A DNA stretch of 32,971 nt from Lachnospiraceae bacterium (lineage in GTDB: Bacteria > Bacillota > Clostridia > Lachnospirales > Lachnospiraceae), in NCBI GenBank assembly GCA_017437785.1, contig JAFRXH010000069.1, positions 1-32,971 of the forward strand. Reading direction: 5' to 3'. Below are positions 3,486-20,002 of the stretch, piece by piece. The position numbers were made by a program, and so were the translations under genes. The first letter of the stretch is position 1. Each line of letters opens with the position of its first letter. The notes beneath the pieces were generated by a model, which made no database searches, was not told where the DNA came from, and worked only from the letters and a program-made list of their open reading frames with translations.

Positions 3486-5984
3486 TCAGCGTATATCAAA
3501 CACGCTGCGTACCTTAAGCCCCTTAGCCTCGCCTTTAATGATCTTTATCCTCCTGCTTCCCCCGTTTAAGTCAAAGAAGTTGTCGGATAATATCAGATCA
3601 TCATTTTCGTTTCTTATCTCTACGCTCTTTGCATATGCCTGCGATGATACTACGATCTCATCTCCTTCAAGCCATACTTTAAGCGCCGGATCGATGAAGT
3701 TAAAATGCTTGGGCGGGCAGAAAAGTACGCTTCCCTGTGAGATGACCTCATCCTTATCCATCAGCTGGTAAGAAACGTAGTTCTCATATAAAGAAGCATC
3801 ATCAAGCCTTATCTCCTCAAGCCATACGGCACTGAGGGCATCTACATCTATCTCTTTACTGTCCTCTTTTATCACTGAACCGTCATTATTTCTAAGCTGC
3901 CATTTAACCATACGTTTTACCGCGCTTTTAGTATCATTGGCAACGCTTAAACGTATGGACTTTTTCACATCAAAAGGCTCTGCGTTGACATTCATGCTCT
4001 GGGTGAGCAGTCCCTCTTCCTCACAGGATATCATTACCGGTGCAAAGAACCTTTTTGCATAATAATGCAGCGCTTTCCATCTGCCGTAATAGTCGATCGA
4101 TGACCAGGAAGCCACCGGCCAGCAGTCATTTAACTGCCAGTAAACCGTTCCCATGCATCGTCCCCTGTTTCTCCTGAAATGCTCCACACCATATCTTATC
4201 GCCTCTGCCTGCAGCAGCTGTGATGCATATATCAGCGTATCCAGATCGTTAGGATACAGGAAGGTCTGCTCCATGTAATTCATTATCTTTCCATTAGCGG
4301 AGGCGTTACGCTGATGCTTTTCCATGATATATGAAAATACGTTTCTGTCCTGCGGCAGTGTAAAGCTCTCCACGGTCTTTATCGAAGGAAATGACTGGAA
4401 GCCGAACTCGGAAAGATATCTGAAGTAAAACTTCCTGTATTCGGTAAAAGGCTTGTTGCCATGCCACACATCCCAGTAATGGACATCTCCTCTGTCGGCC
4501 GAATTGGGATCGTCAAAACCGCCGCCGCACGAAGGTGATGCCGGCCAGTAAAAACGGTCGGGGTCCTCCTCTTCCAGAAGCCTCGGAAAGAGATACTCAT
4601 ACATCTTCACATAATCGCTCTTTATCTCGTTTTTTGCTCCCCACTCCCCTTTATCGACAAACATCTCCATTTCATTGTTGCCGCACCATAATCCGAGACT
4701 CGCATGATGTGCCAGTCTCCTTATATTGTCGCGGAGCTCTGAGAGTATATTCTCTTCGAAATCACGACTGAGCCTGTAATTTGCGCAGGCAAACATAAAG
4801 TCCTGCCATACCACCAGTCCCAGTTCGTCACAGGCATCATAAAAGTCATCCGAAGGATACAGACCGCCGCCCCATACACGAATGCAGTTAAAATTAGCGG
4901 CTTTACACTGCTTAAGCAGATCATACGTCCTCTCCCTGCTGCATCTTGAGAGTATGTTATCCTCAGGGATATAATCAGCCCCCATCGCAAAGAACTTTAT
5001 ATTGTTTACAACATGGGCAAATTCCGCACCGTACTCATCCTTTCGCGTGCTCATTGCCAGATCGCGCAGTCCTATCCTTTTGCGTACGCTGTCGCAGATC
5101 TCTCCGTCTTCGCCGGCAAGCTCGATCTCAAGCGTATAAAGCGGCTGTTCTCCCAATCCGTTAGGCCACCACAGCCTGGGCTTATCGATATCAAGCAGAG
5201 TGCTGTTACGATCACCGCCGCAGTTTAAGCTCATCTCTTTTTTATCATACAGTTTATTCCCGTCGGGATCGGTAATGCTTACGCGTCCGGTAACACTGCC
5301 TTCTCCCGATACCGTGGTATTGATATCAAGCGTTACATGGTCCAATGCCACCTCATCCGTCCCCGGTATACGGCTCCATTTCTGGCTTATATATACGCGC
5401 TCGAATGCGGCCTTTTTAAACTTAAGCAGCTCCACGCTCTTCCAGATACCACCGTCCGGCAGTCTGGGGCCCCAGTCCCAGCCAAACATGTAATGCCCTT
5501 TCCTTATCTTGGGGAAACCCCGCATCGCATCCTCAGTACCCAGTATGGCCGGATCCTTTTTAAATTCTCCGGCTATAAACTCCACGGGTGAATGTATGAT
5601 GACACACAGCTCATTGCCCTGCTCCTTAAGATAAGCTTTTACGGGATACTCCCAGATACGGTGCATATTGTCCGCACTGCCAAGCACATGGCCGTTCAAA
5701 CTGATGTCTGCAATCGTATCTATTCCGTTAAAGCGCAGTATCACTTCATCCGCATCGTCATATTCATCCTTATCCACATTAAAACTTCCGCGATACTCAA
5801 AGTCGTTCTTCATAAGATCTAACGCCTTAAGCTCATTATCTCGCCAATACGGATCTTCCATCCTGCCTGCATTGATCAGGTCATTGTATACGGATCCCGG
5901 TACCGTAGCCGGGATCTGCCCTTCGATTTCCTTATCTCCCAAAACCCTTAACGTCCATTTTTGATCTGTATCTATCCTTTTCAT
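3486..5984 (-). CDS. GH2 beta-mannosidase
   Basis: This 832-residue protein has the size and motif order of cytoplasmic GH2 beta-mannosidases: a jelly-roll sugar-binding domain with GWDWGPRLPDGGIW at 168-181, an immunoglobulin-like domain, then the TIM barrel. The expected acid/base is E438 in WCGNNEME and the nucleophile E526 in SEFGFQSFPS. No signal peptide is visible, so it should act on imported manno-oligosaccharides or N-glycan cores, releasing mannose from non-reducing ends. The start at 5984 follows an AGGAAGGG ribosome site. It lies 21 bases after the fructokinase and 24 before the AGE-family gene, so all three are likely co-transcribed. Activity on other beta-hexosides is possible, but GWDWGP strongly suggests the mannosidase branch. 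Confidence 0.92.
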   Translation of the reverse strand: MKRIDTDQKWTLRVLGDKEIEGQIPATVPGSVYNDLINAGRMEDPYWRDNELKALDLMKNDFEYRGSFNVDKDEYDDADEVILRFNGIDTIADISLNGHVLGSADNMHRIWEYPVKAYLKEQGNELCVIIHSPVEFIAGEFKKDPAILGTEDAMRGFPKIRKGHYMFGWDWGPRLPDGGIWKSVELLKFKKAAFERVYISQKWSRIPGTDEVALDHVTLDINTTVSGEGSVTGRVSITDPDGNKLYDKKEMSLNCGGDRNSTLLDIDKPRLWWPNGLGEQPLYTLEIELAGEDGEICDSVRKRIGLRDLAMSTRKDEYGAEFAHVVNNIKFFAMGADYIPEDNILSRCSRERTYDLLKQCKAANFNCIRVWGGGLYPSDDFYDACDELGLVVWQDFMFACANYRLSRDFEENILSELRDNIRRLAHHASLGLWCGNNEMEMFVDKGEWGAKNEIKSDYVKMYEYLFPRLLEEEDPDRFYWPASPSCGGGFDDPNSADRGDVHYWDVWHGNKPFTEYRKFYFRYLSEFGFQSFPSIKTVESFTLPQDRNVFSYIMEKHQRNASANGKIMNYMEQTFLYPNDLDTLIYASQLLQAEAIRYGVEHFRRNRGRCMGTVYWQLNDCWPVASWSSIDYYGRWKALHYYAKRFFAPVMISCEEEGLLTQSMNVNAEPFDVKKSIRLSVANDTKSAVKRMVKWQLRNNDGSVIKEDSKEIDVDALSAVWLEEIRLDDASLYENYVSYQLMDKDEVISQGSVLFCPPKHFNFIDPALKVWLEGDEIVVSSQAYAKSVEIRNENDDLILSDNFFDLNGGSRRIKIIKGEAKGLKVRSVFDIR

Positions 5985-6005
5985 CTTTAACCCTTCCTGT
6001 ATGTT

Positions 6006-7022
6006 TTATCCGATCTTAAGCACTTCCTCTATCTCATCACGCGCCGGTATAGCCGGTATGCCGCCGCTTTTCTGAATGCAGAGTCCCCCGGAAACCGCAC
6101 CGTATCTTAGCGCATTATACAGCTTATCCATGGTTATATCCGAAGTCTTATGTATCCCCTGTCTTACAAGGGATGATAAAAAGCCTCCCCAGTATGCATC
6201 TCCGGCGCCTGTAGTATCAACCACATGCTCAACTTTCATCGATGCCATATCCGTGAAAAATACCCGGCCGTCTCCTGTATCCTTCCAGCCTTCTTCTGCA
6301 TTCAATGCTTTATCCGCGCAGTTGTAGTAAACCCTTGCACCGTCGCCTCCGCGCGTCAGGGCTGTCACACTGATATCGTACTCTTTCATAAAAGCCGGGA
6401 TGTTATCCTGCCCGCCCACAAAGACAAGTTCCTCTTCCGATATCTTCATAAAATCGGTAAGCGGAAATATCTTCTTCGATTCCGTTAAGCAGTCATCAAC
6501 GCTCCAGATCTTGTCCCTGTAATTAATATCAAAGCTTACCATTTTCCCTGCGTCTTTAGCTTTCTTAAGCATCTTAAGTACCGCATCACGTTCAGATGTT
6601 ATATTTCCCGCCACAGCCCCCGACTGGCTTACAGATCCGGCATGGATCACATCCCACTTCGCGATATCGGTCTTCTCAACTTCTTCTTCCGACAGCAGCA
6701 TATCAGCGCCGGGCTTTCTCGCAAAAGTAAACGAGCGGTCCCCTTTATCATCCAGAGTTACAAAAGCAAGCGTCGTAGTCGCCTCATCAGTCAGCGACGG
6801 AAGGAGCACTTCCACATTGTTCTCCTTAAGGGTTTTTAGCAAAAGCCTTCCGAAATCATCATTTCCAAGCTTTCCCAAAAATCCTGCTTCTATCCCGTTA
6901 CGCGCCGCGCTTACCGCCACATTAGCAGGTGCCCCGCCGGGATTTGCCATATACGCATTGCCCTCCGGCGTTACAACCGGTGTAAAATCGATAAGCATCT
7001 CCCCTATACACAGTATTCCCAT
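6006..7022 (-). CDS. PfkB-family fructokinase
   Basis: A ribokinase/PfkB-fold sugar kinase of about 338 residues. The substrate-binding motif NPGGAPANVAVSAARNG lies near residue 27, RSFTFARKPGADMLL near 100, and the C-terminal DTTGAGDAYWGGF carries the catalytic Asp and anion hole. NPGGAPANVAV and the ADMLL stretch are typical of fructokinases rather than KDG kinases or ribokinases. I chose the ATG at 7022 (MGILCIGE) because family members start there; longer in-frame starts reach 7073, but those extra residues are not family-like. First gene of the mannose operon, it would phosphorylate fructose made by the AGE-family isomerase. A candidate extended -10 promoter lies just upstream. Confidence 0.88.
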   Translation of the reverse strand: MGILCIGEMLIDFTPVVTPEGNAYMANPGGAPANVAVSAARNGIEAGFLGKLGNDDFGRLLLKTLKENNVEVLLPSLTDEATTTLAFVTLDDKGDRSFTFARKPGADMLLSEEEVEKTDIAKWDVIHAGSVSQSGAVAGNITSERDAVLKMLKKAKDAGKMVSFDINYRDKIWSVDDCLTESKKIFPLTDFMKISEEELVFVGGQDNIPAFMKEYDISVTALTRGGDGARVYYNCADKALNAEEGWKDTGDGRVFFTDMASMKVEHVVDTTGAGDAYWGGFLSSLVRQGIHKTSDITMDKLYNALRYGAVSGGLCIQKSGGIPAIPARDEIEEVLKIG

Positions 7023-7068
7023 ATTCACCATACCTCTCTTTATATAATGATCAGGCTTGTCTTCGGAC

Positions 7069-7097
7069 ATCATACCACATAATCCGGCATATTTACA
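7069..7097 (-). promoter_or_regulatory. Candidate promoter for the fructokinase/beta-mannosidase/AGE operon
   Basis: On the minus strand there is an extended -10, TGGTATGAT (core TATGAT at 7069-7074). At 17-bp spacing sits only a weak -35, TGTAAA (7092-7097). The predicted leader is about 40 nt to the start at 7022. It is back to back with the yitT promoter. Confidence 0.5.
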
Positions 7098-7174: not shown

Positions 7175-8011
7175 ATGAAAAAAAATACGCAAGATTTCAT
7201 TTCCGTTCTGATGATAATAGCCGGCGCCCTGCTGGCCAGCTTTTCCGTCATATGCATACTGATACCCAACGATGCCATTGACTACGGGACCGCCGGTATA
7301 GCCATCATCATCAACAAGCTTACGGGCTTCAACCTTTCCCTCTGCGTTATCCTGATATTCCTGCCGTTTCTTATCGCCGGCACCTGGCTTTTGGGAAAAC
7401 GCTTCGGAGCCAAAGCCTTTATAGGAACACTCTTTTATACGATAGGCCTTAGCGTATTTGAAAAGATACCGTTTGAACTGAATACCGAGCACTTTCTGGC
7501 TGTCGTGTTCGGCGGTGCGATACTGGGTGTGGGGCTGGCCATGATACTGCGCTTTGGCGGATGTATCGACGGTTCGGAGATATTCGCCAATATACTGCTC
7601 AAACTTGCAGAGAATAAAACCGGCAAAAACTTCAGTATGACTTACATACTGCTCTTCTTTAATGCAGCGGTCTATCTGGCGGTGTTTGTGCTTATCAACC
7701 GTAACTCCGCGCTCTTAAGCCTGCTGGTATACTTTATAGCCACAACAGTCATAAATCATTTTACCGACCATTTCGAAGCCATCAAGCAGGTAACGATCAT
7801 AACCAAAGATCCCGACGAACTGATAGCGCAGATCAAGAAGGAGCTCAATAAAACCTGCACTATCATGAATTCCTACGGGGCTATCGCCGGTGAGAACAAA
7901 ACGCTGATATGCTATGTTACATACTTTGAACTGCAGAAAATGAAAGAGATCATTTCCGCAAACAAAGGGACTTTCAGCACGGTATCCACCGTTGAAGAGA
8001 TACTGCGCTAA
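7175..8011 (+). CDS. YitT-family (DUF161/DUF2179) membrane protein
   Basis: A 278-residue protein with a hydrophobic N-terminal two-thirds of about five to six membrane segments, including FRFGGCIDGSE-like small-residue motifs (seen as RFGGCIDGSEIFANIL). A soluble C-terminal domain of about 80 residues (KQVTIITKDPDELIAQIKKE onward) is typical of DUF2179. Start 7175 was chosen because AAAAGGA lies eight bases upstream and MKKNTQDF leads straight into the first membrane segment; an upstream in-frame ATG at 7127 lies within the promoter. Function of the family is poorly known. It stands alone on the plus strand, divergent from the mannose operon, and its stop codon overlaps the stop of the convergent FucU gene. 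Confidence 0.85.
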   Translation: MKKNTQDFISVLMIIAGALLASFSVICILIPNDAIDYGTAGIAIIINKLTGFNLSLCVILIFLPFLIAGTWLLGKRFGAKAFIGTLFYTIGLSVFEKIPFELNTEHFLAVVFGGAILGVGLAMILRFGGCIDGSEIFANILLKLAENKTGKNFSMTYILLFFNAAVYLAVFVLINRNSALLSLLVYFIATTVINHFTDHFEAIKQVTIITKDPDELIAQIKKELNKTCTIMNSYGAIAGENKTLICYVTYFELQKMKEIISANKGTFSTVSTVEEILR

Positions 8012-8451
8012 GCCTGCAGCACGCAGCCTTTCTGAAGCAGTATGTTTGCATACTGGCTGCGCTCAGAAGTAGCTATAACAGCATATGCACGCTTAGCCTG
8101 CTCATAAAATTCAAAACGCTCCAGTGTCTGTATCAGAGCACTGCCGCGTTCTTCCTCTTTTGCTATTATCTCCTCATATGTTTTCCATATAGAGATATCC
8201 GCTGTATCCCCGGGAACACGCTCCATTAGACTCACAGGCTTTTCCACATACTGATCCAGCGGAAATACCTTAAGTACCGCCTCTAAGATCTCAGGTACTC
8301 CGTGTCCGTCCATACGTATAACGATAGCGTCCTTTCCCATGGTTTCCGCAGGGAAATTCCCGTCCGCTATAACGATAGTATCGCTGTGTCCCATCTCGCA
8401 GAGCACTTTAAGAAGCTCAGGAGAAAGTATCGGTGATATTCCTTTTAACAT
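8008..8451 (-). CDS. fucU: FucU/RbsD-family L-sugar mutarotase
   Basis: A 147-residue protein of the RbsD/FucU fold, close to the usual 140 residues. The N-terminal GHSDTIVIADGNFP (residues 21-34) supplies the conserved His22 and Asp residues, and the C-terminal ERFEFYEQAKRAYAVIATSE has the FucU-type tyrosines. FucU interconverts alpha and beta anomers of L-fucose, a 6-deoxy-L-galactose, so L-galactose is a natural alternative. It is the last gene of the six-gene operon, 21 bases after the lactonase, with GGAGG nine bases before the ATG. Supplying the right anomer to a 1-dehydrogenase would fit the proposed pathway. Its TAG stop overlaps the convergent YitT stop. Confidence 0.88.
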   Translation of the reverse strand: MLKGISPILSPELLKVLCEMGHSDTIVIADGNFPAETMGKDAIVIRMDGHGVPEILEAVLKVFPLDQYVEKPVSLMERVPGDTADISIWKTYEEIIAKEEERGSALIQTLERFEFYEQAKRAYAVIATSERSQYANILLQKGCVLQA

Positions 8452-8472
8452 TTTTTTATACCTCCATGATGA

Positions 8473-9357
8473 TCATTCCAGCATATTGGGGATATCCGGC
8501 AGCGGCTTAAGCCCTTCTGCTTTATAAAAACGCACGGCGTTTTCTCCCAGGAAAGCATCCTTCTCCGCCTCCGAAAGCTCAGGACTCTCCTCGATAAAAC
8601 GCAGCGCCGAGCGGTAGGTCAGATCCGTCATCGTGCGCGGATAATCGCTTCCCCACATCAGCTTATCCATACCGCAGATATCACGTGCTTCCAGTATTGC
8701 TTTGACAGCGGAAGGATACGGATAGAATTCATGATGAAAAAGCCAGGTAAGTCCTCCGCTCTCAATATATACATTCTTATTGCATGCAAGAGCTATCTGT
8801 TTCTGCCATCCCTTAGTCGTTACCATCCCGAAGTGCCCTATAGTCACACGCAGATCGGGGCAGGCATCTATGATATATTGCATATCATCCGTCTGTGCAT
8901 CTCCGTCTGCCAGATCAAGTCCGACAAATTTACCGGATGCCTCTATACGTTTAAACACGCTAAGGAGCTTCTTAAGATCACTGTCCTTAAGCCTCCCTGC
9001 ACAGATCTTTATGCCGTCGAATCCCTCTAAGGCAAAATCGTCACGTTCCTCATAAAGTGAACATATACGGAATCTGTCGGGATAGCTTTTGCGTGCCTTA
9101 AGAAGATATCCGTCCTGATTTCCGTCGATATATTCCTGGGTCACCACACACATATTTACCCGTGCATAATCCATGTTTGCGATAAGCCGCTCCGAAGTAT
9201 TACTGTTATCCTCCATATACGGCGGCATCATCTGCCTGCGCACGCCTTCAAAGTCCGCTATACCGTTTCCCACGCCATATACAGGCTTCCCTCCGGCACG
9301 CCCGTTTTGCTTTTCCCACAGATGAACATGTGCATCAATGATGATCCTCTCACTCAT
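8473..9357 (-). CDS. Amidohydrolase-2 family sugar lactonase (L-galactono/L-fuconolactonase type)
   Basis: A 294-residue TIM-barrel amidohydrolase of the COG3618-like group. HVHLW at residues 10-14 supplies the metal ligands His10 and His12, GHFG gives His175, and WGSDYPR gives the catalytic Asp238. Characterised relatives open aldonolactones such as L-fuconolactone, L-rhamnonolactone and galactarolactone. Its start overlaps the UxaA stop by four bases (ATGA), so it is translationally coupled into the operon. With a sugar dehydrogenase upstream, the predicted job is hydrolysis of L-galactono-lactone to L-galactonate. The lactone identity is inferred from the neighbours; related decarboxylases share the fold, so a different reaction cannot be excluded. 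Confidence 0.8.
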   Translation of the reverse strand: MSERIIIDAHVHLWEKQNGRAGGKPVYGVGNGIADFEGVRRQMMPPYMEDNSNTSERLIANMDYARVNMCVVTQEYIDGNQDGYLLKARKSYPDRFRICSLYEERDDFALEGFDGIKICAGRLKDSDLKKLLSVFKRIEASGKFVGLDLADGDAQTDDMQYIIDACPDLRVTIGHFGMVTTKGWQKQIALACNKNVYIESGGLTWLFHHEFYPYPSAVKAILEARDICGMDKLMWGSDYPRTMTDLTYRSALRFIEESPELSEAEKDAFLGENAVRFYKAEGLKPLPDIPNMLE

Positions 9358-10745
9358 AATGTTACCCCATCCTTAAAGATCGCGATCTCGCGGTATGCGT
9401 TACGCTCGTTTTCGGTTTCCTTTCCTTCCGCCACCTCAAGGCAGTACTCAATAAAATCTTTTTGCAGATCCACGCCGTCTATCATCGGCCCCGCATCAAA
9501 ATCTATCCAGTTAGATTTCCGTCTGCTGATATCGCGATTGGTACCTATCTTAACCGTAGGAACAGGCGCTCCCAGCGGTGTCCCCCGTCCGGTCGAAAAG
9601 AGTATCATATGACATCCTGCCGCTGTCAGATTTGTCACTGCCACCATATCATTACCCGGCCCGTTTAAAAGGTTTAAGCCGTTCTTTCTGACCGTATCCC
9701 CGTATGTCAGCACATCGACCACCGGCGAAGTCCCGCCCTTTTGCGTACATCCGAGTGACTTCTCCTCAAGTGTTGTGATGCCCCCCGCCTTGTTGCCCGG
9801 TGAAGGATTCTCATAGATCACCTGATCGTGTCTGGTGTAATAATCCTTAAAGTCATTGATAAGCCTTACGGTCTTATCAAACACCGCAGCGTCTGTGCAG
9901 CGGTTCATAAGTATCTGCTCTGCGCCAAACATCTCCGGCACTTCCGTCAGGACAGTGCTCCCTCCCTGTCCGCACAGCCAGTCGGAGAACATGCCGATCA
10001 AAGGATTGGCAGTTATTCCCGAAAAGCCGTCGGAGCCTCCGCACTTTAAACCAACTCTCAGTCTTGATACCGGTACGCTCACCCTCTTATCGGCGGAAGC
10101 TGTTTTTTTTAGCTCCGTGATCAGCCTTATCCCCTCTTCTATCTCATTCTCAAAAGACTGGGCATTCAGAAACTTTACCCGGTCTTCGTCAACAGTTCCA
10201 AGGACTTTCTTAAATTCATCAATATTATTATTCTCACATCCCAGCCCCAGTACCAGTACTCCTCCGGCATTGGGATGTCTTACCAGTCCCCGCAGTATCT
10301 TCTGCGTAGTCTCATGATCCCCGCCAAGCTGCGAGCAGCCGTAAGGATGGGTGAAGCAGAATGCACCGCTGCGCCGGGAAAGCTCTTCAGCTGTCTTGTT
10401 CACACAGCCGACAGTATTGATGATCCATATGTCATTACGGATACCGATATTTCCGTCAGCCCTCTCATAAGCCATGACAGTCCGTCCCTCTGTGTCTGCA
10501 CATGCTACGTCCTTATGCAGCGCAGCATCAGGTTCGTACTTATAATCCAGCTTACCGCTAAGGCTTGTAGCCATATTATGTGTATGGACGTGTTCTCCTT
10601 TTTGAATGTCAGCCGTGGCATGCCCTATAGGAAAGCCGTACTTGATGATATCCTCCCCCTTACGGATATCGCTTAAAGCGCTCTTGTGCCCTGTCTCTGT
10701 ATCCACAGCCACATTATCCGAAGGATGTATCTTTAATAAGCTCAT
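9354..10745 (-). CDS. uxaA: Altronate dehydratase UxaA
   Basis: A 463-residue two-domain protein: an N-terminal SAF domain (about residues 8-75, with GHATADIQKGEHVHTHNM) and the large UxaA catalytic domain from about 90. Key motifs are FTHPYGCSQLGGDHE at 131-145, VLGLGCENN, NPSPGNKAGGITTLEEKSLG and STGRGTPLGAPVPTVKIGTN. E. coli UxaA is about 495 residues, so this is a normal full-length form. It dehydrates D-altronate to 2-keto-3-deoxy-D-gluconate using an iron cofactor. ATGA overlaps link it to uxaB upstream and the lactonase downstream. The downstream KDG kinase and aldolase are absent from the window and must be encoded elsewhere. Galactarate/altronate-type relatives share the fold, but adjacency to UxaB makes altronate the best call. 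Confidence 0.93.
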   Translation of the reverse strand: MSLLKIHPSDNVAVDTETGHKSALSDIRKGEDIIKYGFPIGHATADIQKGEHVHTHNMATSLSGKLDYKYEPDAALHKDVACADTEGRTVMAYERADGNIGIRNDIWIINTVGCVNKTAEELSRRSGAFCFTHPYGCSQLGGDHETTQKILRGLVRHPNAGGVLVLGLGCENNNIDEFKKVLGTVDEDRVKFLNAQSFENEIEEGIRLITELKKTASADKRVSVPVSRLRVGLKCGGSDGFSGITANPLIGMFSDWLCGQGGSTVLTEVPEMFGAEQILMNRCTDAAVFDKTVRLINDFKDYYTRHDQVIYENPSPGNKAGGITTLEEKSLGCTQKGGTSPVVDVLTYGDTVRKNGLNLLNGPGNDMVAVTNLTAAGCHMILFSTGRGTPLGAPVPTVKIGTNRDISRRKSNWIDFDAGPMIDGVDLQKDFIEYCLEVAEGKETENERNAYREIAIFKDGVTL

Positions 10746-12082
10746 GCCAATACCTCTTCAAAAGCTGCTGCCATTCCCTTATCCTGCATGATATCGTAAT
10801 AATGTTCAACTTTATCCGCCATAAAGCTAAGATCCTGTCCCCAGTATTCCTGCTTTGCAAGTATCCCGCGCACAGGTGCGCTCTTCATATAGGCCATTAT
10901 CTCTTCGCCGTCATTACTCTCATCGGTACGGTAAAATGCGATCAGCGCGGAAAGAGAAAAAGTAAGACACTCAGGCAGTTTTCCTCTCTGCTCATAGTAT
11001 TCCAGTATCGTAGGCAGTACCCGCGCTTTAAATTTGCTTACGGAGTTAAGTGCGATGCTAAGGAGCTGATGCTTAACGAAAGGATTGGCAAAACGCTCCA
11101 AAACCGCATTTCCGAAAGGAATATCTTCCTCTTCATGTCCCAGCGTGGGAATGATCTCTTCAAATACCGCCTTATTCAGGAAACGGCTTACCAGCGGATC
11201 ATCCAGGCATTCTTTGACAGTGGAGAGTCCGTACAGCCGTGCTGCCAGTACCATCGAGGTATGTCCGCCGTTTAAGATGCGTACCTTTCTTTTTTTGTAC
11301 GGCTTGACATCATCGGTCCAAATAACATTTATTCCTGCTTTCTTAAGCGGGAAGATATCCTCATGATGTCCCTCGATAACCCACAGGTGAAAGATCTCGG
11401 CAGTATTCATCAGTTTATCATTGCATCCGAGACGCTCTGTAAGCGCCTCCGCTTCATCCTTGGGATATCCCGTACAGATACGGTCCACCAAAGTGTTACA
11501 GAAGTCATTTTCAGTCTCTACCCATTTGCTGAATCCTTCCGGCAGTTCCCAGAGTTTTGCATACTTAAGCACGCATGCCAAAAGCTCTTTTCCGTTATTG
11601 TCTATAAGCTCACACGAAAGTATGGCAAAGCCTCCCAGTCCTGCCTTATAACGTTCATACAAAAGAGCCGTGAGTTTTGCGGGGAAGGATCTGGGAGGAG
11701 CATCCGTTATCTTCTCCGTTCCCAGATACTCTATACCGGCCTCTGTAGTATTCGATATAATGATCTGCATATCCGGATCCCGTGCCAGTTTTAAGTATTC
11801 ATCATAATCGGTATAGGGATCCACACCGCGTGATATGGAATGTACTTCTATACATTCATCTATAACCCTGCCTTCATCTATACCGCGCAGGAACTGGTGA
11901 TATACTCCGTTCTGCTCATTTATCACCGGTATCAGTCCCTTGGCGATAGGCTGTACCACAACGGCTTTCCCGTCGTAGAGCCCCTGCTCGTTCATCTTAT
12001 GTATAAAAACATCCACGAAACTGCGGAGAAAACCGCCTTCTCCGAATTGTATGATCCTCTCTTTGTATTCTGTTATTGCCAT
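10742..12082 (-). CDS. uxaB: Tagaturonate reductase UxaB
   Basis: A 446-residue mannitol-dehydrogenase-family oxidoreductase. From the N-terminus, ERIIQFGEGGFLRSFVD (8-24) is the Rossmann start typical of UxaB, followed by SNTTEAGIEY (110-119), CELIDNNG, TGYPKDE and DDVKPYKKRKVRILNGGHTS (257-276). These match E. coli UxaB much better than UxuB. It reduces D-tagaturonate to D-altronate with NADH. The frame stays open upstream to 12226, but I place the start at 12082 (MAITEYKERI) because family similarity begins there; its ribosome site (GGGCGGTG) is weak. No uxaC is nearby, so its tagaturonate must come from another reaction, presumably the LgoD-like dehydrogenase encoded just upstream. Confidence 0.94.
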   Translation of the reverse strand: MAITEYKERIIQFGEGGFLRSFVDVFIHKMNEQGLYDGKAVVVQPIAKGLIPVINEQNGVYHQFLRGIDEGRVIDECIEVHSISRGVDPYTDYDEYLKLARDPDMQIIISNTTEAGIEYLGTEKITDAPPRSFPAKLTALLYERYKAGLGGFAILSCELIDNNGKELLACVLKYAKLWELPEGFSKWVETENDFCNTLVDRICTGYPKDEAEALTERLGCNDKLMNTAEIFHLWVIEGHHEDIFPLKKAGINVIWTDDVKPYKKRKVRILNGGHTSMVLAARLYGLSTVKECLDDPLVSRFLNKAVFEEIIPTLGHEEEDIPFGNAVLERFANPFVKHQLLSIALNSVSKFKARVLPTILEYYEQRGKLPECLTFSLSALIAFYRTDESNDGEEIMAYMKSAPVRGILAKQEYWGQDLSFMADKVEHYYDIMQDKGMAAAFEEVLA

Positions 12083-12146
12083 TTCATTCACCGCCCTTTT
12101 TTGTTTGTATCCGCCACGGACATGCGGCAGGATATGCCGTTTGCTT

Positions 12147-13169
12147 TTATTTATCACCGATATTGATAAGTACTTTAGCCAGGCTGCCGTCATTGTCTGC
12201 CAAAGCCTTAAACGCCTCATCCGCACGCTCTATAGGATATATATCGCTTACCATATCCAGTACATTGATCTCCCCGGATGCTATAAGGTCGATCACCGCG
12301 CGGAAATCCCGGGGATAGGAATTGCGGCTTCCGAATACATTGAGCTCCTTCTTAAGCAGGACCGAATGCAGGAATGTAGTCTCCTTCTTACCGTTTCCGA
12401 TCAGGATTATATTTGCTGCGAATGCAGCACAGTCTATACATGATAAAAATGTCACCGACTGTCCGCAGGCTTCCACGCACACATCAAAGCCATTTCCTCC
12501 GGTGATGCGCATCGCCTCTTCACGTATATCTTTTTCTTTCGAATTTATCACGCCATCGGCACCAAAGTGAAGTGCTTTTTCAAGTCTTCCGGGTAAGATA
12601 TCTGCCGAATATACTTTAGCTCCCTGAGCTTTTGCCGCGATCAGCGCAAACAGTCCGATCGGGCCGGCACCGACTATCAGCACATTATCTCCGGGTTTGA
12701 CTTCTGCCCGGTGCAGGGCGTGATAACTTATGGTAAAGGGCTCAACCAGTGCAAGTTCTTTTGCTGAGAGTCCTTTTCCGTTATATATCCTCTCAAGCGG
12801 CATCACTATGTATTCACGGAAAGCCCCGTCCCTCTGCACACCCATGGTCTGGTTGTCAGTGCAGCAATTGACAAATCCCCTGCGGCAGGAATAGCACTCC
12901 CCGCAATTAAAATACGGATTGGCTGTCACTATATCTCCGGCTTTAAGGCCTCTGTCGTTTTCGGGCACAGATACGATCTGTGCACTGAACTCATGTCCCG
13001 GGATCCTTGGATAAGTGGTAAAAGGCTGATTGCCTATGTAACTGGCCACATCAGCACCGCATATCCCGCCGTACATTACCTTAAGAAGCGCCTCTCCTTC
13101 CCCGGGCTTGAGCATATCCGTTTCGCCCACATGTATCTTAAAAGGTTCATCTATCATTACTGTTTTCAT
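12147..13169 (-). CDS. Zinc-dependent dehydrogenase, LgoD/YjjN-like (L-galactonate 5-dehydrogenase candidate)
   Basis: A 340-residue medium-chain dehydrogenase, the same length as E. coli LgoD (YjjN). The catalytic zinc ligands are expected at Cys37 (GGICGAD), His59-Glu60 (GHE) and Glu in VEPFTISYHAL. The structural zinc is held by Cys89, Cys92, Cys95 and Cys103. The NAD-binding motif is GAGPIG. Phrases such as GNQPFTTYPRIPGHE and the late FGSRNSYPRDF resemble YjjN as I remember it. LgoD oxidises L-galactonate at C5 to D-tagaturonate, exactly the substrate of UxaB encoded next. The ATG at 13169 follows CGGAGAG. Other polyol or sugar-acid dehydrogenases of this family remain possible; the pathway context is what favours L-galactonate. 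Confidence 0.75.
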   Translation of the reverse strand: MKTVMIDEPFKIHVGETDMLKPGEGEALLKVMYGGICGADVASYIGNQPFTTYPRIPGHEFSAQIVSVPENDRGLKAGDIVTANPYFNCGECYSCRRGFVNCCTDNQTMGVQRDGAFREYIVMPLERIYNGKGLSAKELALVEPFTISYHALHRAEVKPGDNVLIVGAGPIGLFALIAAKAQGAKVYSADILPGRLEKALHFGADGVINSKEKDIREEAMRITGGNGFDVCVEACGQSVTFLSCIDCAAFAANIILIGNGKKETTFLHSVLLKKELNVFGSRNSYPRDFRAVIDLIASGEINVLDMVSDIYPIERADEAFKALADNDGSLAKVLINIGDK

Positions 13170-13235
13170 ATTCTTATCTCTCCGTTCTTTATGATCTGTA
13201 CAATTCCGTGCTTTTTTTTGTTAAACACTGTCCCA

Positions 13236-14450
13236 TCAGGTTCGTGCGGACTGCATATCCACATACTCCGGATTCCATACCACAGCCGTTTTCATCGGCG
13301 CACCTTTTGAATATATACGGTTTTTATAAGCTCCGATCGGATCTTTTGTGAATTCGTCACGGTCTATCAGTTCAACTATCTCATCATAGCTGCTCTTTGC
13401 AAGCAGCTCTATCGCCTTCTCCATATGATCCTGCCTGAAGTTGATCGATCCGAATATCAGATGATTCTCAAAACCAAAAGGCATCGTATCAAACGATATA
13501 TCAGGTCCCAATGAGAAGCTGTTGTAGATACCGTTGCAGCCCAGCACCTTATGCTCAAATGCGATCCTGTGCTCTGAATTGCCTCCGCTGACACCTATAA
13601 ACAGTGTCGCACGTCCGCCCATGCGCTCCACTATCGCTTTTGCAAGATCTTCTTCGCTATCAAAAGTATTACGGAGATACTGCGCATTTGTCTGTCGCAG
13701 GGCAAAGCTTACCTTGGGTGAATCCTCACTGCTCCTTGCCACAAAAAGGACATTAGCGTTTTTGTGCGCCTTAAGTATCAGATCACCGATGAACATGCCC
13801 GTTGTCCCAAGCCCGAATATAACGGTACGCTCAAAGATCTCTTCCTTTGCCGCATCACGCGCCTCCTGTTCGGAACAGCCCAGCCTTTTCATGGTCCTGC
13901 GGAAATTATGTGCGCTTCCCAGATCCTCCATCCTCTCAAGCTGGAAAAGCATGCACGCAAAAGGATCGGGAAATACCATTTTTTTTGCAAACGAAAGATC
14001 AAGCTTTCCGTCTTTTACATAACCGTCGGGTATGCGCAGAAGCATATCCGGGTTAAAATACTGTTTGTCACAGAATAAGCCGTCTGCACCGTCGCATCCG
14101 TATTCAAAATATGTTTCATCTTCGGTATAGCGTGTAGGATCCCAGCTGTCACCGCCGCGGATAAGCACGATGGCAAAGCGATTTTCCGAAGGGACCCAGA
14201 CGATACCCTCATGTCCGTTGATAAGACGGTTGCGCCCTTTCGGGAACTTGGGACCTAAGAGTCCTTTGCTTCCCATGTTCATCAGTTCATTATCCGTGCC
14301 GCAGAATCCGACCATTACAGGTTCACAGAGCACGCCATCTTTTTCTTCCTCACCGCGCAGTCTCCTGCGGCGCACGTTTTCGATCTCCACATCACCGTAT
14401 ACCAACGGCTTATCGGGGTCATTCTGAAAATATGTTCCCTTAACTATCAT
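13236..14450 (-). CDS. Divergent MDR sugar dehydrogenase (glucose-dehydrogenase-like), candidate aldose 1-dehydrogenase
   Basis: A 404-residue medium-chain dehydrogenase resembling the archaeal-type glucose dehydrogenase branch. VGFCGTDNELM (Cys50) and NGHEG (His80, Glu81) are the catalytic zinc motifs, and VIFGLGTTGMFIGDLI the Rossmann turn (GLGTTG at 213-218). The region that usually holds four clustered structural-zinc cysteines has only Cys119 and Cys127 in a rewritten segment. First gene of the operon, 66 bases before the LgoD-like gene and divergent from the AraC regulator. Predicted role: oxidise an aldose at C1 to its lactone, the substrate of the lactonase. Start codons at 14474, 14456 and 14450 are possible; GAGG nine bases before 14450 favours the last. 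The substrate is inference. Confidence 0.72.
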   Translation of the reverse strand: MIVKGTYFQNDPDKPLVYGDVEIENVRRRRLRGEEEKDGVLCEPVMVGFCGTDNELMNMGSKGLLGPKFPKGRNRLINGHEGIVWVPSENRFAIVLIRGGDSWDPTRYTEDETYFEYGCDGADGLFCDKQYFNPDMLLRIPDGYVKDGKLDLSFAKKMVFPDPFACMLFQLERMEDLGSAHNFRRTMKRLGCSEQEARDAAKEEIFERTVIFGLGTTGMFIGDLILKAHKNANVLFVARSSEDSPKVSFALRQTNAQYLRNTFDSEEDLAKAIVERMGGRATLFIGVSGGNSEHRIAFEHKVLGCNGIYNSFSLGPDISFDTMPFGFENHLIFGSINFRQDHMEKAIELLAKSSYDEIVELIDRDEFTKDPIGAYKNRIYSKGAPMKTAVVWNPEYVDMQSART

Positions 14451-14480
14451 CCGCATATACCTCTTTCCTGACATTAAGTA

Positions 14481-14574: not shown

Positions 14575-14597
14575 TGTCGCCTTTTCGCAGATTATTC

Positions 14598-15611: not shown

Positions 15612-17171
15612 TCACAGTTTAGTCGTCCATTTGGTACAATCCCATATCTGCGTGGCCAGGTTAGTGTAGAATTCCGGCTCATGGCACACCATAAGGATGC
15701 TTCCTTTATATTCTTTCAACGCCCTTAGCAGCTCGTTTTTCGCATCCACATCCAGATGGTTCGTAGGCTCATCGAGTACCAGCAGATTCGATTCCCTGTT
15801 GATCAGCTTACACAGCCTTACCTTGGCCTGCTCTCCACCAGACAGCACCTTACACTTGCTCTCGATATGTTTGGTGGTCAGCCCGCACTTTGCCAGTGCA
15901 GAGCGTGCTTCGTACTGGGTAAATCCGGGGAATTCGTTCCATATCTCCTGCAGACAGGTAGTCTCTATATCAGCCGGCATCTCCTGTTCGAAATACCCTA
16001 TCTCAAGATTCTCGCCAAGTTCCACTTCCCCCTTTAGCGCCGGGATCAGTCCCAGTATACTTTTTAACAGGGTAGTCTTGCCTATACCGTTGGATCCGGT
16101 AAGCACTATACACGATCCGCGTTCCATACTCACATTAAGCGGCGAAGATAAGGGCTCATTATAGCCTATCACCAGATCCTTCGTCTCGAATAAAATCTTG
16201 CTTGGAGTCCGTGCTGTCCTAAAATTGAATTCCGGCTTGGGCTTTTCCTGTATCTTTTCGATAACTTCCATATTATCCAGCTTCTTCTGCCTGGACATGG
16301 CCATATTCCTGGTAGCGACCCTGGCTTTATTACGTGCCACAAAGTCCTTAAGCTCCGCTATCTCCTGCTGCTGTTTATTATATGCCGCTTCACGCTGCGC
16401 TTTCTTTACTTCATATACCTCAGTGAATTTATCATAATCGCCTACATAGCGCTCCAGACTGTGCGTGTTTCCGTCCATATGATATACGATGTTGATCACG
16501 CTGTTTAAGAACGGAATATCATGCGAGATCAGTATGAACGCATTTTCATAATCCTGCAGATATTTTTTAAGCCATTCGATATGCTCTGCATCAAGGTAGT
16601 TTGTCGGCTCATCCAAAAGCAGTATATCCGGCTTCTCCAGCAGCAGTTTCCCCAGCAGTATCTTGGTACGCTGTCCTCCCGAAAGTTCCGTAACATCACG
16701 TTCAAGCCCCAGATCCAACAGTCCCAGAGCTCTGGCCACCTCTTCGACCTTTGCGTCTATCATATAAAAGTCGTGATTTGTCAGAAGATCCTGTATGGTC
16801 CCGGTCTCTTCCATATACTCCGCCATTTCTTCTTCCGTGGCTTCGCCCATCTTCTCATACAGCTCGTTCATCCGTGCTTCCATATCGTAAAGCGGTTCAA
16901 AAGCACTTGCGAGTACTCCGCGTATGGTCATCCCCTCTTTAAGAACCGCATGCTGATCCAGATAGCCCGCTTTAACATTCTTAGCCCACTCTATCGTACC
17001 TTCATCCGGTGTCAGTTTTCCCGTGATGATATTCATAAACGTGGATTTTCCTTCCCCGTTTGCTCCCACAAGGCCGATATGCTCCCCCGGGAGCAGTCTG
17101 AAAGAAACATCGTCAAAAATCGCCCTGTCTCCGAAACCATGTGTTAAATGTTCAACATTTAATATACTCAC
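15612..17171 (-). CDS. ABC-F family ATPase (ribosome-associated type)
   Basis: A 519-residue protein with two ABC nucleotide-binding domains and no membrane segments. Domain 1 has GANGEGKST, ELSGGQRTKILL and LLLDEPTNYLD; domain 2 has GSNGIGKTT, LSGGEQAKVRL and LVLDEPTNHLD. The linker around residues 240-320 is charged (RNKARVATRNMAMSRQKK), like the P-site tRNA interaction motif of ABC-F translation factors and antibiotic-protection proteins. The second domain ends with an unusual MVCHEPEFY in place of SHDRxF. Translation starts at a GTG (17171) nine bases after GAAGGA. It follows an orphan response regulator by 28 bases, so co-expression is likely. Whether it is a housekeeping translation factor or a resistance factor cannot be told from sequence. 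Confidence 0.92.
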   Translation of the reverse strand: MSILNVEHLTHGFGDRAIFDDVSFRLLPGEHIGLVGANGEGKSTFMNIITGKLTPDEGTIEWAKNVKAGYLDQHAVLKEGMTIRGVLASAFEPLYDMEARMNELYEKMGEATEEEMAEYMEETGTIQDLLTNHDFYMIDAKVEEVARALGLLDLGLERDVTELSGGQRTKILLGKLLLEKPDILLLDEPTNYLDAEHIEWLKKYLQDYENAFILISHDIPFLNSVINIVYHMDGNTHSLERYVGDYDKFTEVYEVKKAQREAAYNKQQQEIAELKDFVARNKARVATRNMAMSRQKKLDNMEVIEKIQEKPKPEFNFRTARTPSKILFETKDLVIGYNEPLSSPLNVSMERGSCIVLTGSNGIGKTTLLKSILGLIPALKGEVELGENLEIGYFEQEMPADIETTCLQEIWNEFPGFTQYEARSALAKCGLTTKHIESKCKVLSGGEQAKVRLCKLINRESNLLVLDEPTNHLDVDAKNELLRALKEYKGSILMVCHEPEFYTNLATQIWDCTKWTTKL

Positions 17172-17199: not shown

Positions 17200-17934
17200 T
17201 CATTCAATGATATATCCCACACCCCAGATAGTCTTCAGTATCTTGGGATCATCCGGATCATCCTCAAGCTTCATCCTGATACGCCTGGCATGGACCGGCA
17301 GTGTACCTTCTCCTATAAACTCATCCTCCCAGGCACACTTAAGGAGTTCATCTTTTGTAACGACCCTTCCCCTGTTTTTCAATATATACAGGAGCATATT
17401 GTACTCCCTGACCTTAAGTTCTGTCTCTTCGCCATTCTTTACCAGTTTATGTGCTGATGTATCCAGATAGATATTTCCGGCTATCTTTATCTGTGCTTCC
17501 GCCTTAGAAGATGTATCATCAGCCGTACTTCCCGATGCATTCTCTGCTGCCTTCGCCAGGCTTACGGCTTTCTCATATCGCTGAAGTACCGCTTTCACCT
17601 TTGCAAGAAGTATACTCATGGTAAAGGGCTTGCCTATATAATCATCACCGCCGATATTTAAAGCAGTAAGGATATCGTCATCACTCTTTCGCGCGCTGAT
17701 GAACAGGATCGGCATATCAAATTCCCGGCGTATCTTCTTACACAGCTCAAAGCCGGACCTCTCACCCAGATTGATATCCAGAAGCACCAGAGATGTTTCG
17801 TTTTCCTCCAAGAACCTGACTGCATCATCATAGCTTGTGACGAATGCGGTGGATATGTCAAAAATATTAAAGTATTCTGCTGTATTTTCAGCGATCGTAA
17901 TATCATCATCTACGATCAGGCATTTTACGTCCAT
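17200..17934 (-). CDS. Orphan OmpR-family response regulator
   Basis: A 244-residue regulator with a receiver domain (acidic pocket D9-D11, phosphoacceptor D53 in LVLLDINLG, Lys102 in YIGKPF) and a C-terminal winged helix (ELKVREYNMLLYILKNRGR, then KTIWGVGYIIE). A roughly 35-residue Ala/Ser/Thr-rich linker separates the domains. ATG 17934 was chosen because AGGAGG lies five bases upstream. The frame remains open through the GC-rich leader as far as 18051, so a longer product is conceivable but not expected. No histidine kinase gene is adjacent; the gene is followed by ABC-F. Its targets are unknown; nearby ABC transporter promoters are candidates. Confidence 0.9.
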   Translation of the reverse strand: MDVKCLIVDDDITIAENTAEYFNIFDISTAFVTSYDDAVRFLEENETSLVLLDINLGERSGFELCKKIRREFDMPILFISARKSDDDILTALNIGGDDYIGKPFTMSILLAKVKAVLQRYEKAVSLAKAAENASGSTADDTSSKAEAQIKIAGNIYLDTSAHKLVKNGEETELKVREYNMLLYILKNRGRVVTKDELLKCAWEDEFIGEGTLPVHARRIRMKLEDDPDDPKILKTIWGVGYIIE

Positions 17935-17942
17935 GCTGTCCT

Positions 17943-18040
17943 CCTGTGCATCGGGTAGGGAAGACGAAGTCGCACCCTGCCCGCGCGCGGGCCGCCGGTT
18001 GCCTTTAGGCAACATATTCCTTACGGCGGCCCTGTGCATC
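17943..18040. repeat. GC-rich multi-hairpin element bounded by 10-bp direct repeats
   Basis: CCTGTGCATC occurs at 17943-17952 and again at 18031-18040. The 78 bases between are far more GC-rich than the neighbourhood and full of symmetry: GGGCCGCCG (17989-17997) pairs with CGGCGGCCC (18024-18032), enclosing GTTGCC/GGCAAC (17998-18013); a 14-bp palindrome GCCCGCGCGCGGGC lies at 17979-17992. It forms most of the leader of the response regulator gene. It could be a small inserted repetitive element with target duplication or a structured mRNA leader. Confidence 0.5.
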
Positions 18041-18079
18041 AAAAAAGCCACAGATATTATACCATTTCTGTGGCCTTTT
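18041..18079 (-). terminator. Rho-independent terminator after the SxxK hydrolase gene
   Basis: GCCACAGA (18047-18054) and TCTGTGGC (18067-18074) form an 8-bp stem with a 12-nt loop. On the minus strand the stem is followed by TTTTTT (18046-18041), and on plus by CTTTT, so it may work both ways. It lies 12 bases past the hydrolase stop. Confidence 0.8.
18056..18064 (-). promoter_or_regulatory. Extended -10 promoter inside the terminator loop
   Basis: On the minus strand the loop of the terminator reads TGGTATAAT, a perfect extended -10. The -35 position shows only TGGTTA. It would start transcription near 18049 toward the response regulator at 17934, giving a leader of about 115 nt that contains the GC-rich hairpins. 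Confidence 0.45.
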
Positions 18080-18091
18080 AACCATATATAT

Positions 18092-20002
18092 TTACTTTGT
18101 CGTGCTTACTGCAACGCTCTGCCCCGTCACGCCGGCAAAGACGATCATCCCGTACTCCGGCAGAGGAACCTTGTTTCCATATCCGGTCATATAAGAGGAA
18201 TACTTTATATTCATATATTTATCATATACATACACCGATGCATTCTCCGGTATGTCAAGTCTTAGTGTTACATCCTTTGCCCCATCTATCTTAAACCAGC
18301 TTGCTTCACCGGACATAAGCTCTACCGTCGTAACTTTATCCGTAAATACGGGAATATCTTTTTCCGATATAAGTCTAAAGCCCAGGTCATCAAGACAGGC
18401 ATATTCTTTCCCGTCGATCCTCTCCATGCGCAGATCACTGATATCCCTTGAGGCGCTTCCGGGCATGATCTGATCATATCCTGCATGATCTTCATCCTGC
18501 ATCCGATATCCGTTTACCATGCCGGGAGCCTGATCGCTCGTACACAATTTCATCCGGTTGTTGTCGGTATAGGCGGTATCTGAAAACGAACCGCTCACCA
18601 GGTAGTAGTATAGGCCGTTACGCTCATCCCATGCCTTCTGTACGCTTTCCTCCACCTTTTTTTCCCTTACCTTTACCAGCATGCAGCCCATTTCCGGATG
18701 TGAAAGATATACCTGCCCGTTCCTTTCTTCAAACATATATGCCTGCAGCGGCTGAGCCGGAATGGCATTTCCGGAACTTACATCTCCGCTCATCTCCACG
18801 AATGTGCCGTCTGCGGTATACATATACTGCAGTTCAAACTCATTTTCGGAAGTAACGGAACGTACCTGCATGTAGCGTTTATCCGGAAAGCTTATATACA
18901 TGGTCTTTTCAGTATTTGCATATAAACCTTCATATTTCATGTACTCATCCGGTACCATGATAAGTTCAGGCTTTTCTTTTTCCGGATGCACTATGTCGAT
19001 CCCCTGTTCTGAGAGTGCCACATCCATAAGCTCTAAACATATCTCCTCACAATTGGTACTGGATCCGCCGGATGAAAGCACTGCCACGCTGATCTTCTCA
19101 TCCGGCGCTACCAGCAGATTTGAATGATGCAAGGCATCCCCTCCCTTTGAAAGCAGCTTTACACCGGCTTTTTCATATTCTTCCTTCTCTACGTTATCCC
19201 AGCCCAGGCCAAAGGCCGGCAGGCATCCGTCCACACTGTTGTTCTCTGCCATTTCGCGCTTGGCTTCTTCGGACAGTAAGGTATTATCTCCTGTAAAAAA
19301 CGCTGTCCCAAACTTACATACATCCTCTGCATCAGACAAAATCCCTCCTGCGCCTATCAGCTGCACAACTGCATTAGCCAGCTTTACATTTCCATTTATA
19401 TATACGGGAACCTGCCCGTTGGGGTCCACGTCCCACAGAGTTCCCGTATGTTCCAGACTCAGCGGCATGCTTATGTTTTCTTTCAGATATTCCGTAAAGC
19501 TCAAACCGCTTACACGCTCCACAAGTATCTCGAGCAGAGTAAAGCCGTCGTTGCAGTAGCAATTGAATGCACCCGGATCTGCTTTCAACCGCTGCCTTTT
19601 CAGCTTCTGTAAAAACGTATCATGGTAATCCATGCTTATTTCATCAAAGAGAAGGGCCCCGGCATAAGTCGATCCCATCAGTCCCGAAGTATGGTTCATC
19701 AGCATGCGTACCGTGATATCCTTGTAACGTCCATCCGCCATTTTAAAGTCCGTAATGTAATCTGCAACCGGCTTATCAAGTTCAACCTTTCCGCTGTCCA
19801 CCAGCTGCATTACCGCTGTGGTAACATACATCTTGCTTACGGATGCAATGTTTAAAACACTGCTGCTTATATCATTGGCTGCAGCTGCCGGTATGCTTTC
19901 ATTGCCCGGATCTTTTGCATTCACTGCCAAGGCCCCGGCGGAGGCAGTTAATGCCAGCCCGATCATTATCCCTGAATACAATTTTTTAATCTTTTTTTTC
20001 AT
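18092..20002 (-). CDS. Exported serine beta-lactamase-fold hydrolase (class C/esterase-like)
   Basis: A 636-residue protein with a signal peptide (MKKKIKKLYSGIMIGLALTA, cleavage probably soon after AVNA near 28) and a beta-lactamase/DD-peptidase-like domain. The nucleophile motif SVSK places Ser54 and Lys57; the second motif is Tyr149-Cys150-Asn151. The third motif is not a clear KTG or HTG; SKGGDALHHSN is the best candidate. The last 250 residues are beta-rich and carry no motif I recognise. Start 20002 follows TTGGAGGAAAAA. It lies 50 bases after a MacB-like permease gene, ends at a strong terminator and is likely co-expressed with that transporter. It may act on peptides, esters or beta-lactams outside the membrane; the substrate is unknown. 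Confidence 0.85.
   Translation of the reverse strand: MKKKIKKLYSGIMIGLALTASAGALAVNAKDPGNESIPAAAANDISSSVLNIASVSKMYVTTAVMQLVDSGKVELDKPVADYITDFKMADGRYKDITVRMLMNHTSGLMGSTYAGALLFDEISMDYHDTFLQKLKRQRLKADPGAFNCYCNDGFTLLEILVERVSGLSFTEYLKENISMPLSLEHTGTLWDVDPNGQVPVYINGNVKLANAVVQLIGAGGILSDAEDVCKFGTAFFTGDNTLLSEEAKREMAENNSVDGCLPAFGLGWDNVEKEEYEKAGVKLLSKGGDALHHSNLLVAPDEKISVAVLSSGGSSTNCEEICLELMDVALSEQGIDIVHPEKEKPELIMVPDEYMKYEGLYANTEKTMYISFPDKRYMQVRSVTSENEFELQYMYTADGTFVEMSGDVSSGNAIPAQPLQAYMFEERNGQVYLSHPEMGCMLVKVREKKVEESVQKAWDERNGLYYYLVSGSFSDTAYTDNNRMKLCTSDQAPGMVNGYRMQDEDHAGYDQIMPGSASRDISDLRMERIDGKEYACLDDLGFRLISEKDIPVFTDKVTTVELMSGEASWFKIDGAKDVTLRLDIPENASVYVYDKYMNIKYSSYMTGYGNKVPLPEYGMIVFAGVTGQSVAVSTTK

Follow-up and report, generated by a model that had tools for sequence, protein, structure and literature searches.

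A six-gene operon in a Lachnospiraceae bacterium predicted to feed L-galactose into the hexuronate route at D-tagaturonate

A predicted oxidative pathway for L-galactose

We analyzed a 32,971-base stretch of DNA (the window), which is the complete contig JAFRXH010000069.1 (C19 here) of a 3.2-Mb, 107-contig genome of a Lachnospiraceae bacterium (assembly GCA_017437785.1). On its minus strand, six genes at 8008-14474 follow one another in the order MDR (a protein of the medium-chain dehydrogenase/reductase fold), LgoD-like zinc dehydrogenase, UxaB, UxaA, lactonase, and FucU, and an AraC-family regulator gene diverges from them. The six genes are confirmed as real and intact and, as judged by sequence comparison, quite probably form an AraC-controlled operon for the oxidative use of L-galactose via D-tagaturonate to 2-keto-3-deoxygluconate (KDG). 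The original prediction had named six co-directional, partly overlapping genes beside a divergent AraC gene, and had assigned them to gene families; the layout was borne out, and Pfam and NCBIfam gave the same families. Chance does not account for the arrangement, since all six genes recur in 33 of 80 related loci. Genes, families, conservation, and linkage are read directly from sequence, and from them we infer the reactions, the substrates, the function of the operator, and the source of the sugar.

In the scheme that we propose, the FucU-type mutarotase (8008-8451) would interconvert the anomers of free L-galactose, and the glucose dehydrogenase-like MDR (13236-14474, 412 aa, with a start possibly at 14450 or 14456) would act as an L-galactose 1-dehydrogenase yielding L-galactono-1,5-lactone. 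The COG3618-type amidohydrolase (8473-9357) would open this lactone to L-galactonate, which the LgoD/RspB-type zinc dehydrogenase (12147-13169) is predicted to oxidize at C5 to D-tagaturonate; UxaB (10742-12082) would then reduce D-tagaturonate to D-altronate, and UxaA (9354-10745) would dehydrate D-altronate to KDG. For the last steps, contig C44 offers two adjacent genes, one for a PfkB-family kinase (called kdgK by position only) and one for a 2-keto-3-deoxy-6-phosphogluconate (KDPG) aldolase, which would complete the breakdown of KDG. A pfkB gene of the window itself (6006-7073) was considered as the operon's KDG kinase and set aside: its best NCBIfam match is a fructokinase, under the cut-off, a convergent YitT gene intervenes, and the C44 kinase fits better.

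Within the operon, UxaB and UxaA overlap by 4 bases, as do UxaA and the lactonase, and the remaining intergenic gaps measure 21, 64, and 66 bases. For UxaB, we rejected the open reading frame (ORF) start at GTG 12226 as an over-extension in favor of ATG 12082 (446 aa), which is preceded by the Shine-Dalgarno-like AAAAAGGG.

Conservation of the gene set across related loci

A genome scan with the MDR gave 300 confirmed relatives, of which 80 were kept with their flanks; nearly all are from metagenome-assembled genomes (MAGs), and genes were counted per locus as found, with some loci cut by contig ends. These loci belong mainly to Lachnospiraceae and other Clostridia, along with two from Treponema and one from Chloroflexota. 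Many of the sample names mention rumen, sheep, goat, buffalo, horse, roe deer, or rabbit ("Lapin"), and the others give no source. The closest named relative (L015, MDR 97%) is from the uncultured Lachnospiraceae MAG RUG12463, whose prefix we take to denote a rumen genome. Within the window's own family the MDR is patchy, with matches in 5 of 250 genomes, a count that includes its own genome and one whose match is no better than E 9.6e-4.

Co-occurrence in related genomes, a check that the original prediction had called for, supports the linkage: across the 80 loci, the MDR is accompanied by the LgoD-like gene in 72, the lactonase in 66, FucU in 53, UxaB in 41, and UxaA in 39. The core of the locus is the MDR, the LgoD-like dehydrogenase, the lactonase, and the mutarotase, and UxaB and UxaA are optional.

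Individual loci carry additional genes. In L024 (9050-11341) and L040 (14011-16320), UxaA and the lactonase are separated by a hybrid histidine kinase gene inside the operon. Directly 5' of the MDR in L082 (6525-9764) are genes for the solute-binding protein and permease of an ATP-binding cassette (ABC) sugar transporter, a candidate importer of oligosaccharides bearing L-galactose; in the operon of the window itself, we identified no transporter.

Protein families, catalytic residues, and predicted folds

Catalytic positions were compared in alignments at the sites typical of each family, and at these positions the LgoD-like protein, UxaB, and the lactonase show no loss of a catalytic residue. 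UxaB scores 543.4 bits against the NCBIfam tagaturonate reductase model NF002969 (cut-off 359; run on 10742-12106), is 43.7% identical to E. coli UxaB, and keeps K274, N279, and H282 (K-N-H) in 42 of 42 rows, E. coli UxaB among them. UxaA carries the GD_AH domains (329.1/146.9 bits, the former for GD_AH_C) and is 53.7% identical to its E. coli counterpart. The two proteins thus have the features expected of a tagaturonate reductase and an altronate dehydratase, respectively. A galactarate route, with the MDR as uronate dehydrogenase and UxaA as galactarate dehydratase, was discarded, as UxaA reaches 246.1 bits against TIGR03248, far under the cut-off of 730.85, and UxaB and the LgoD-like protein would be left unexplained.

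The LgoD-like protein is a member of the zinc alcohol dehydrogenase family (98.8/82 bits); of the only two proteins with which it was compared, it is nearer to E. coli LgoD (34.8%, 202 bits) than to RspB (31.0%, 170 bits), and its catalytic and structural zinc ligands are intact in 73 of 73 rows (these two included). The lactonase matches Amidohydro_2 (85.9 bits) and retains the HxH/H/D pattern in 66 of 66 rows, save for one X at H10. Its predicted fold lies nearest the COG3618 enzymes 4dlf/4do7 of Burkholderia multivorans, which we take to be L-fucono-1,5-lactonase, at 18-19% identity, and it has the characters of a COG3618 lactonase-like protein. FucU matches RbsD_FucU (PF05025) at 152.7 bits and the FucU structure 3mvk at 206.5 bits.

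For the MDR, the Pfam domain Glu_dehyd_C reaches 21.1 bits, under its cut-off of 34.9, and no named NCBIfam family is matched. It has no aldo-keto reductase match in Pfam or NCBIfam, and so is not of the type of LguA, Bvu0219, and plant L-galactose dehydrogenase (GalDH) discussed below; a profile comparison with the LgoD-like protein gave no support for a relation between those two. In an AlphaFold model with a poor stretch at 107-131, the MDR fold is nearest to glucose 1-dehydrogenases (2cd9, 2b5v; 18-19% identity), where our fold comparisons are re-ranked Foldseek matches and thus less than a full structure search. The MDR could conceivably oxidize some other sugar of related configuration, such as D-arabinose or an aldose not listed here, given that a mammalian L-fucose dehydrogenase also takes D-arabinose and L-galactose (available text of PMC13406643). 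We regard this as very unlikely, since to judge from the structures C5 of D-arabinonate carries only the terminal hydroxyl, and neither an LgoD-type C5 oxidation nor UxaBA would follow from it.

UxaBA in and outside the operon

UxaA was sought in the genomes behind two sets of loci: 27 of the 30 with the lactonase and no UxaBA (all but L080, L091, and L092) and 33 of the 39 with an operon UxaA (all but L015, L028, L048, L054, L069, and L072); these genomes are mostly MAGs and possibly incomplete. UxaA was found elsewhere in 23 of the 27, and all 33 of the others were positive, 32 of them with a single copy, against a background of 89 in 250 genomes of the window's own family. The presence of UxaA thus follows the operon wherever it is encoded, which suggests that the operon's product needs an altronate dehydratase and fits D-tagaturonate rather than the products of L-fuconate.

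The original prediction had reasoned that, because uxaC is absent, UxaB's tagaturonate must come from another source. At the level of the genome this premise fails: uxaC is missing from the window contig only and is present at C26:53-1474, on a different contig, so that the window's operon is not a galacturonate locus of the uxaCBA type. On contig C24, uxuA adjoins a gene of the mannitol dehydrogenase family, which we read as uxuB, and an AraC gene lies there too; the uxuA/uxuB-like pair points to glucuronate use, which probably is what the genome's uxaC serves. Since we found no GD_AH_C protein in this genome other than the operon UxaA, and no close UxaB copy other than that of the operon, both may serve galacturonate as well.

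We inspected 20 hand-picked uxaC loci, all in genomes that have the operon too. In the nine genomes whose operon lacks UxaBA, uxaC is linked to uxaA in every case and to uxaB in eight, forming a galacturonate locus; in the eleven with operon UxaBA, uxaC has no adjoining uxaBA. In trees of UxaA and UxaB (the latter with long-branch warnings), operon copies separate from galacturonate-locus copies with the sole exception of L013, whose divergent UxaBA pair beside the MDR groups with the galacturonate-locus copies. A count of at least 10 switches between operons with and without UxaBA in the MDR tree was not relied on, because contig ends truncate some of the loci.

These observations bear on the reading of the operon as an ordinary D-galacturonate locus with a displaced uxaC, in which the MDR, zinc dehydrogenase, lactonase, and FucU would be passengers. 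The genome does have uxaC, any galacturonate use must run through the operon UxaBA as the only close copies found, and a relative with operon UxaBA (L107) has a glycoside hydrolase family 28 (GH28) gene near uxaC. Yet it is the supposed passengers that are conserved as the core, and UxaBA that is optional; each of the nine inspected genomes without operon UxaBA has a galacturonate locus elsewhere; operon UxaBA falls, with one exception, in clades of its own; and uxuA accounts for uxaC. We hold this reading to be highly improbable and retain that of an L-galactose operon.

Glycosidase neighbors and the likely source of the sugar

Three operons contain a GH29 gene: between the lactonase and FucU in L036, after the lactonase in L081, and just before the MDR in L089. 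The L089 protein scores 403 bits against the exo-alpha-L-galactosidase BpGH29 (7ljj), compared with 257 for the best other alpha-L-fucosidase structure, and a profile of the L036 and L081 proteins scores 337.5 against 217.6. The structure 7snk belongs to BpGH29 as well, despite its PDB title of fucosidase (available text of PMC12316285), and the sequence cluster of BpGH29 also contains fucosidases (available text of PMC11189522), which calls for caution in reading a GH29 substrate. A GH95 gene lies divergently beside the MDR in L042, L044, and L047, and 8 of the 80 loci have GH31 in them or nearby, the one tested (L080) being nearest to alpha-xylosidases. The window's genome has one GH95, distant from the operon, and a search of it gave no GH29. 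None of the three families occurs in the 20 uxaC control loci, a small control (267 kb, against 1294 kb for the 80 loci). The glycosidase reference proteins were mostly from the same loci, which gives self-matches, and further cluster members were labeled by clustering and tblastn with Pfam spot-checks. A Thr/His position of GH95 considered as a substrate reporter was left unused: the window genome's GH95, as we read its alignment, has Thr, yet so does a strict fucosidase (available text of PMC8245568).

The same data bear on L-fucose (6-deoxy-L-galactose) as the true substrate, in which case the first steps would lead to L-fuconate and UxaBA would be used for something else. Judged by model name, FucU and the lactonase come closest to enzymes of L-fucose, the nearest solved lactonase is the presumed L-fucono-1,5-lactonase noted above, and families GH29 and GH95 are mostly fucosidases. 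L-fuconate, however, lacks the C6 hydroxyl, so that its C5 oxidation product would not be tagaturonate and phosphorylation of its later product at C6 would be impossible, and yet UxaA tracks the operon; moreover, among the genes of the operon Pfam detects none for a fuconate dehydratase, and the GH29 proteins within operons are nearest to an exo-alpha-L-galactosidase. We consider an L-fucose operon very improbable.

Corn xylan bears side residues of alpha-L-galactose and alpha-xylose, which Bacteroides ovatus (PMC4491172) and a Herbinix isolate (PMC7176698) remove with GH95 and GH31 enzymes, and the texts available of both describe L-galactose as capping the side chains, and unusual side chains as leading to recalcitrance. 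The sugar is probably released from plant glycans by GH95 or GH29 alpha-L-galactosidases, with grass glucuronoarabinoxylan the likeliest source for hosts in herbivore guts.

A candidate operator

The AraC-family regulator (plus strand, Pfam HTH_18 and AraC_binding) probably starts at 14699 and ends at 15544 (281 aa), rather than starting at the GTG at 14492 from which its ORF is listed. Between it and the MDR lies CTGCGAAAAGGCGACA (14575-14590, minus strand), a candidate operator of this regulator on the strength of its conservation. Using a pattern derived from the window and nine other loci, and allowing at most 2 mismatches, we find the block CTGCGAAAAnnCGACA upstream of the MDR in 23 of 26 loci that have a divergent AraC gene, always in the operon's orientation there, and in 15 of 18 loci not used for the derivation. 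In L021, where a GH2 gene precedes the MDR, the block stands before the GH2 gene. The window's genome has one exact match, at the operon, and one site with 1 mismatch (C1:4231); a reversed-pattern control also gave one, and a wider regulon defined by the pattern was dropped on that account.

Balance of the evidence

Several observations weigh against the L-galactose pathway. Three of its enzymes miss the equivalog-level models: the LgoD-like protein scores 201.5 against NF007489 ("Zn-dependent oxidoreductase", presumably the LgoD/YjjN family; cut-off 376) and so is LgoD-like without being filed as LgoD, the lactonase has 26.9 bits against the L-fucono-1,5-lactonase model NF052480 (cut-off 400), and FucU, with 134.5, falls just below the cut-off of 141 of the L-fucose mutarotase model NF011949. 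In four to five loci (L079, L080, L084, L091, and perhaps L092), an Fe-ADH_2-family protein (c21, 424-454 aa) takes the place of the LgoD-like gene; it lies beside the MDR and, wherever the contig extends far enough, beside the lactonase. This protein is a possible non-orthologous L-galactonate dehydrogenase. No UxaA was found in 4 of the 27 genomes whose operon lacks UxaBA, MAGs that may be incomplete. Glycosidase linkage is confined to a minority of loci. Finally, uxaC was found in 57 of the 60 genomes searched, and the operon may have a share in galacturonate use.

Set against these, the path from L-galactose through its lactone, L-galactonate, D-tagaturonate, and D-altronate to KDG, as the original prediction had assembled it, is strengthened by co-occurrence, by the complementarity of UxaA, by alpha-L-galactosidase-type neighbors in some loci, and by two predicted folds; what it has lost is the premise of a missing uxaC and its newness in kind. 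A wider proposal seems to us evenly poised. Under it, the MDR of 412 aa would define a new, non-orthologous L-galactose 1-dehydrogenase family, and the operon would be a widespread route by which Bacillota (and Treponema) of herbivore guts consume the side chains of alpha-L-galactose that grass glucuronoarabinoxylan bears; D-tagaturonate would be a hub common to this route and that of galacturonate, and in many genomes the standard galacturonate pair would have given way to a dedicated UxaBA clade.

Other genes in the window

A row of minus-strand genes at 2211-7073, encoding a GlcNAc/mannose 2-epimerase family protein, a GH2 beta-mannosidase-like protein, and the fructokinase-like PfkB protein, plausibly serves mannose use through fructose. 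Also on the minus strand are an ABC-F protein (15612-17171; 389.9 against the cut-off of 380 of the ribosomal protection-like model NF000355) and an alpha-galactosidase with a Melibiase_2 domain (31715-32881). Response regulators, a beta-lactamase-fold protein, an FtsX permease with its ABC ATPase, and a sensor kinase occupy 17200-25568, and two further ABC ATPase/FtsX pairs lie at 3-2083 and 27074-30313.

Comparison with known systems

The route itself is known. The original prediction knew of no described Firmicute operon with all six parts, and among the papers that our literature searches listed, most subscription journals lying outside them, we saw no description of such an operon or of a Bacillota route for freed L-galactose; the same pathway has nonetheless been published for Bacteroides vulgatus and Luteolibacter. 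What appears new, from the sequences compared here, is the non-orthologous first enzyme, the Firmicute gene set, the separate UxaBA clade, and the candidate AraC operator.

In Bacteroides (Phocaeicola) vulgatus, L-galactose is converted to D-tagaturonate by Bvu0219, Bvu0220, and Bvu0222 (Hobbs et al. 2014, as cited in PMC12632266), and BVU_0219 clusters with LguA and the L-galactose dehydrogenase of plants (PMC12632266). Like the window, this organism combines a dehydrogenase and an L-galactonate dehydrogenase with subsequent entry into the hexuronate route, and its first enzyme is of the LguA/plant type, unrelated to our MDR. All three members of that type are presumably aldo-keto reductases. 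The steps in B. vulgatus reportedly run from L-galactose through the lactone and L-galactonate to D-tagaturonate, with an amidohydrolase-type lactonase as in the window. UxaA, UxaB, and FucU share one operon in the window.

Single parts have counterparts elsewhere. E. coli lgoTRD, uxaCA, and uxaB likewise take L-galactonate to tagaturonate with LgoD and onward with UxaB and UxaA, but the annotated genes start at L-galactonate, not L-galactose, and are scattered; L-galactose itself can be transported, though inefficiently, by FucP (available text of PMC13406643). Archaeal MDR glucose 1-dehydrogenases (2cd9, 2b5v) resemble our MDR in predicted fold and in likely oxidation at C1 of an aldose, despite the low identity and sub-threshold Glu_dehyd_C score given above. 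The B. multivorans COG3618 enzyme, in turn, shares fold and HxH/H/D pattern with our lactonase, which is distant from it in identity and falls far under the equivalog cut-off.

Another close system is lguABCDEF of Luteolibacter sp. LG18, where knock-outs show L-galactose catabolism (PMC12632266). It too has a regulator in opposite orientation (annotated Btr), an L-galactose dehydrogenase, an L-galactonate dehydrogenase, a tagaturonate reductase, and an altronate dehydratase (PMC12632266). It differs in that LguA is not an MDR, in that a lactonase and FucU are not listed among lguA-F (an rbsD-annotated gene stands beside lguG elsewhere), and in holding a KDPG aldolase and a fructokinase, which the window's operon does not (PMC12632266). 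Because LguA and LguD act on L-glucose and L-galactose or their acids (PMC12632266), the window's operon might serve both sugars, its first two enzymes also taking L-glucose and L-gluconate. We give this very little credence, as the window's operon has no gene for an LguG-type C4 epimerase (the rest of the genome was not searched for one) and L-glucose is presumed not to occur in nature (PMC12632266). Bacillota sequences are present in the LguA cluster (PMC12632266), and an LguA-type route may thus also exist in other Bacillota.

Btr, the Luteolibacter regulator, we take to be of the AraC family, as is the window's regulator. Enzymes that release L-galactose are known (GH95, GH29), and the loci described here offer a candidate fate in Bacillota for the freed sugar. 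If the MDR is an L-galactose dehydrogenase, it would represent a second evolutionary origin of that enzyme, give a name to an unnamed protein family, and allow the use of L-galactose in herbivore guts to be traced by a marker gene. The Luteolibacter authors saw no organism that has the six orthologues and lacks lguG (PMC12632266); to this missing gene set for L-galactose only, our loci would be one answer, with a different first enzyme.

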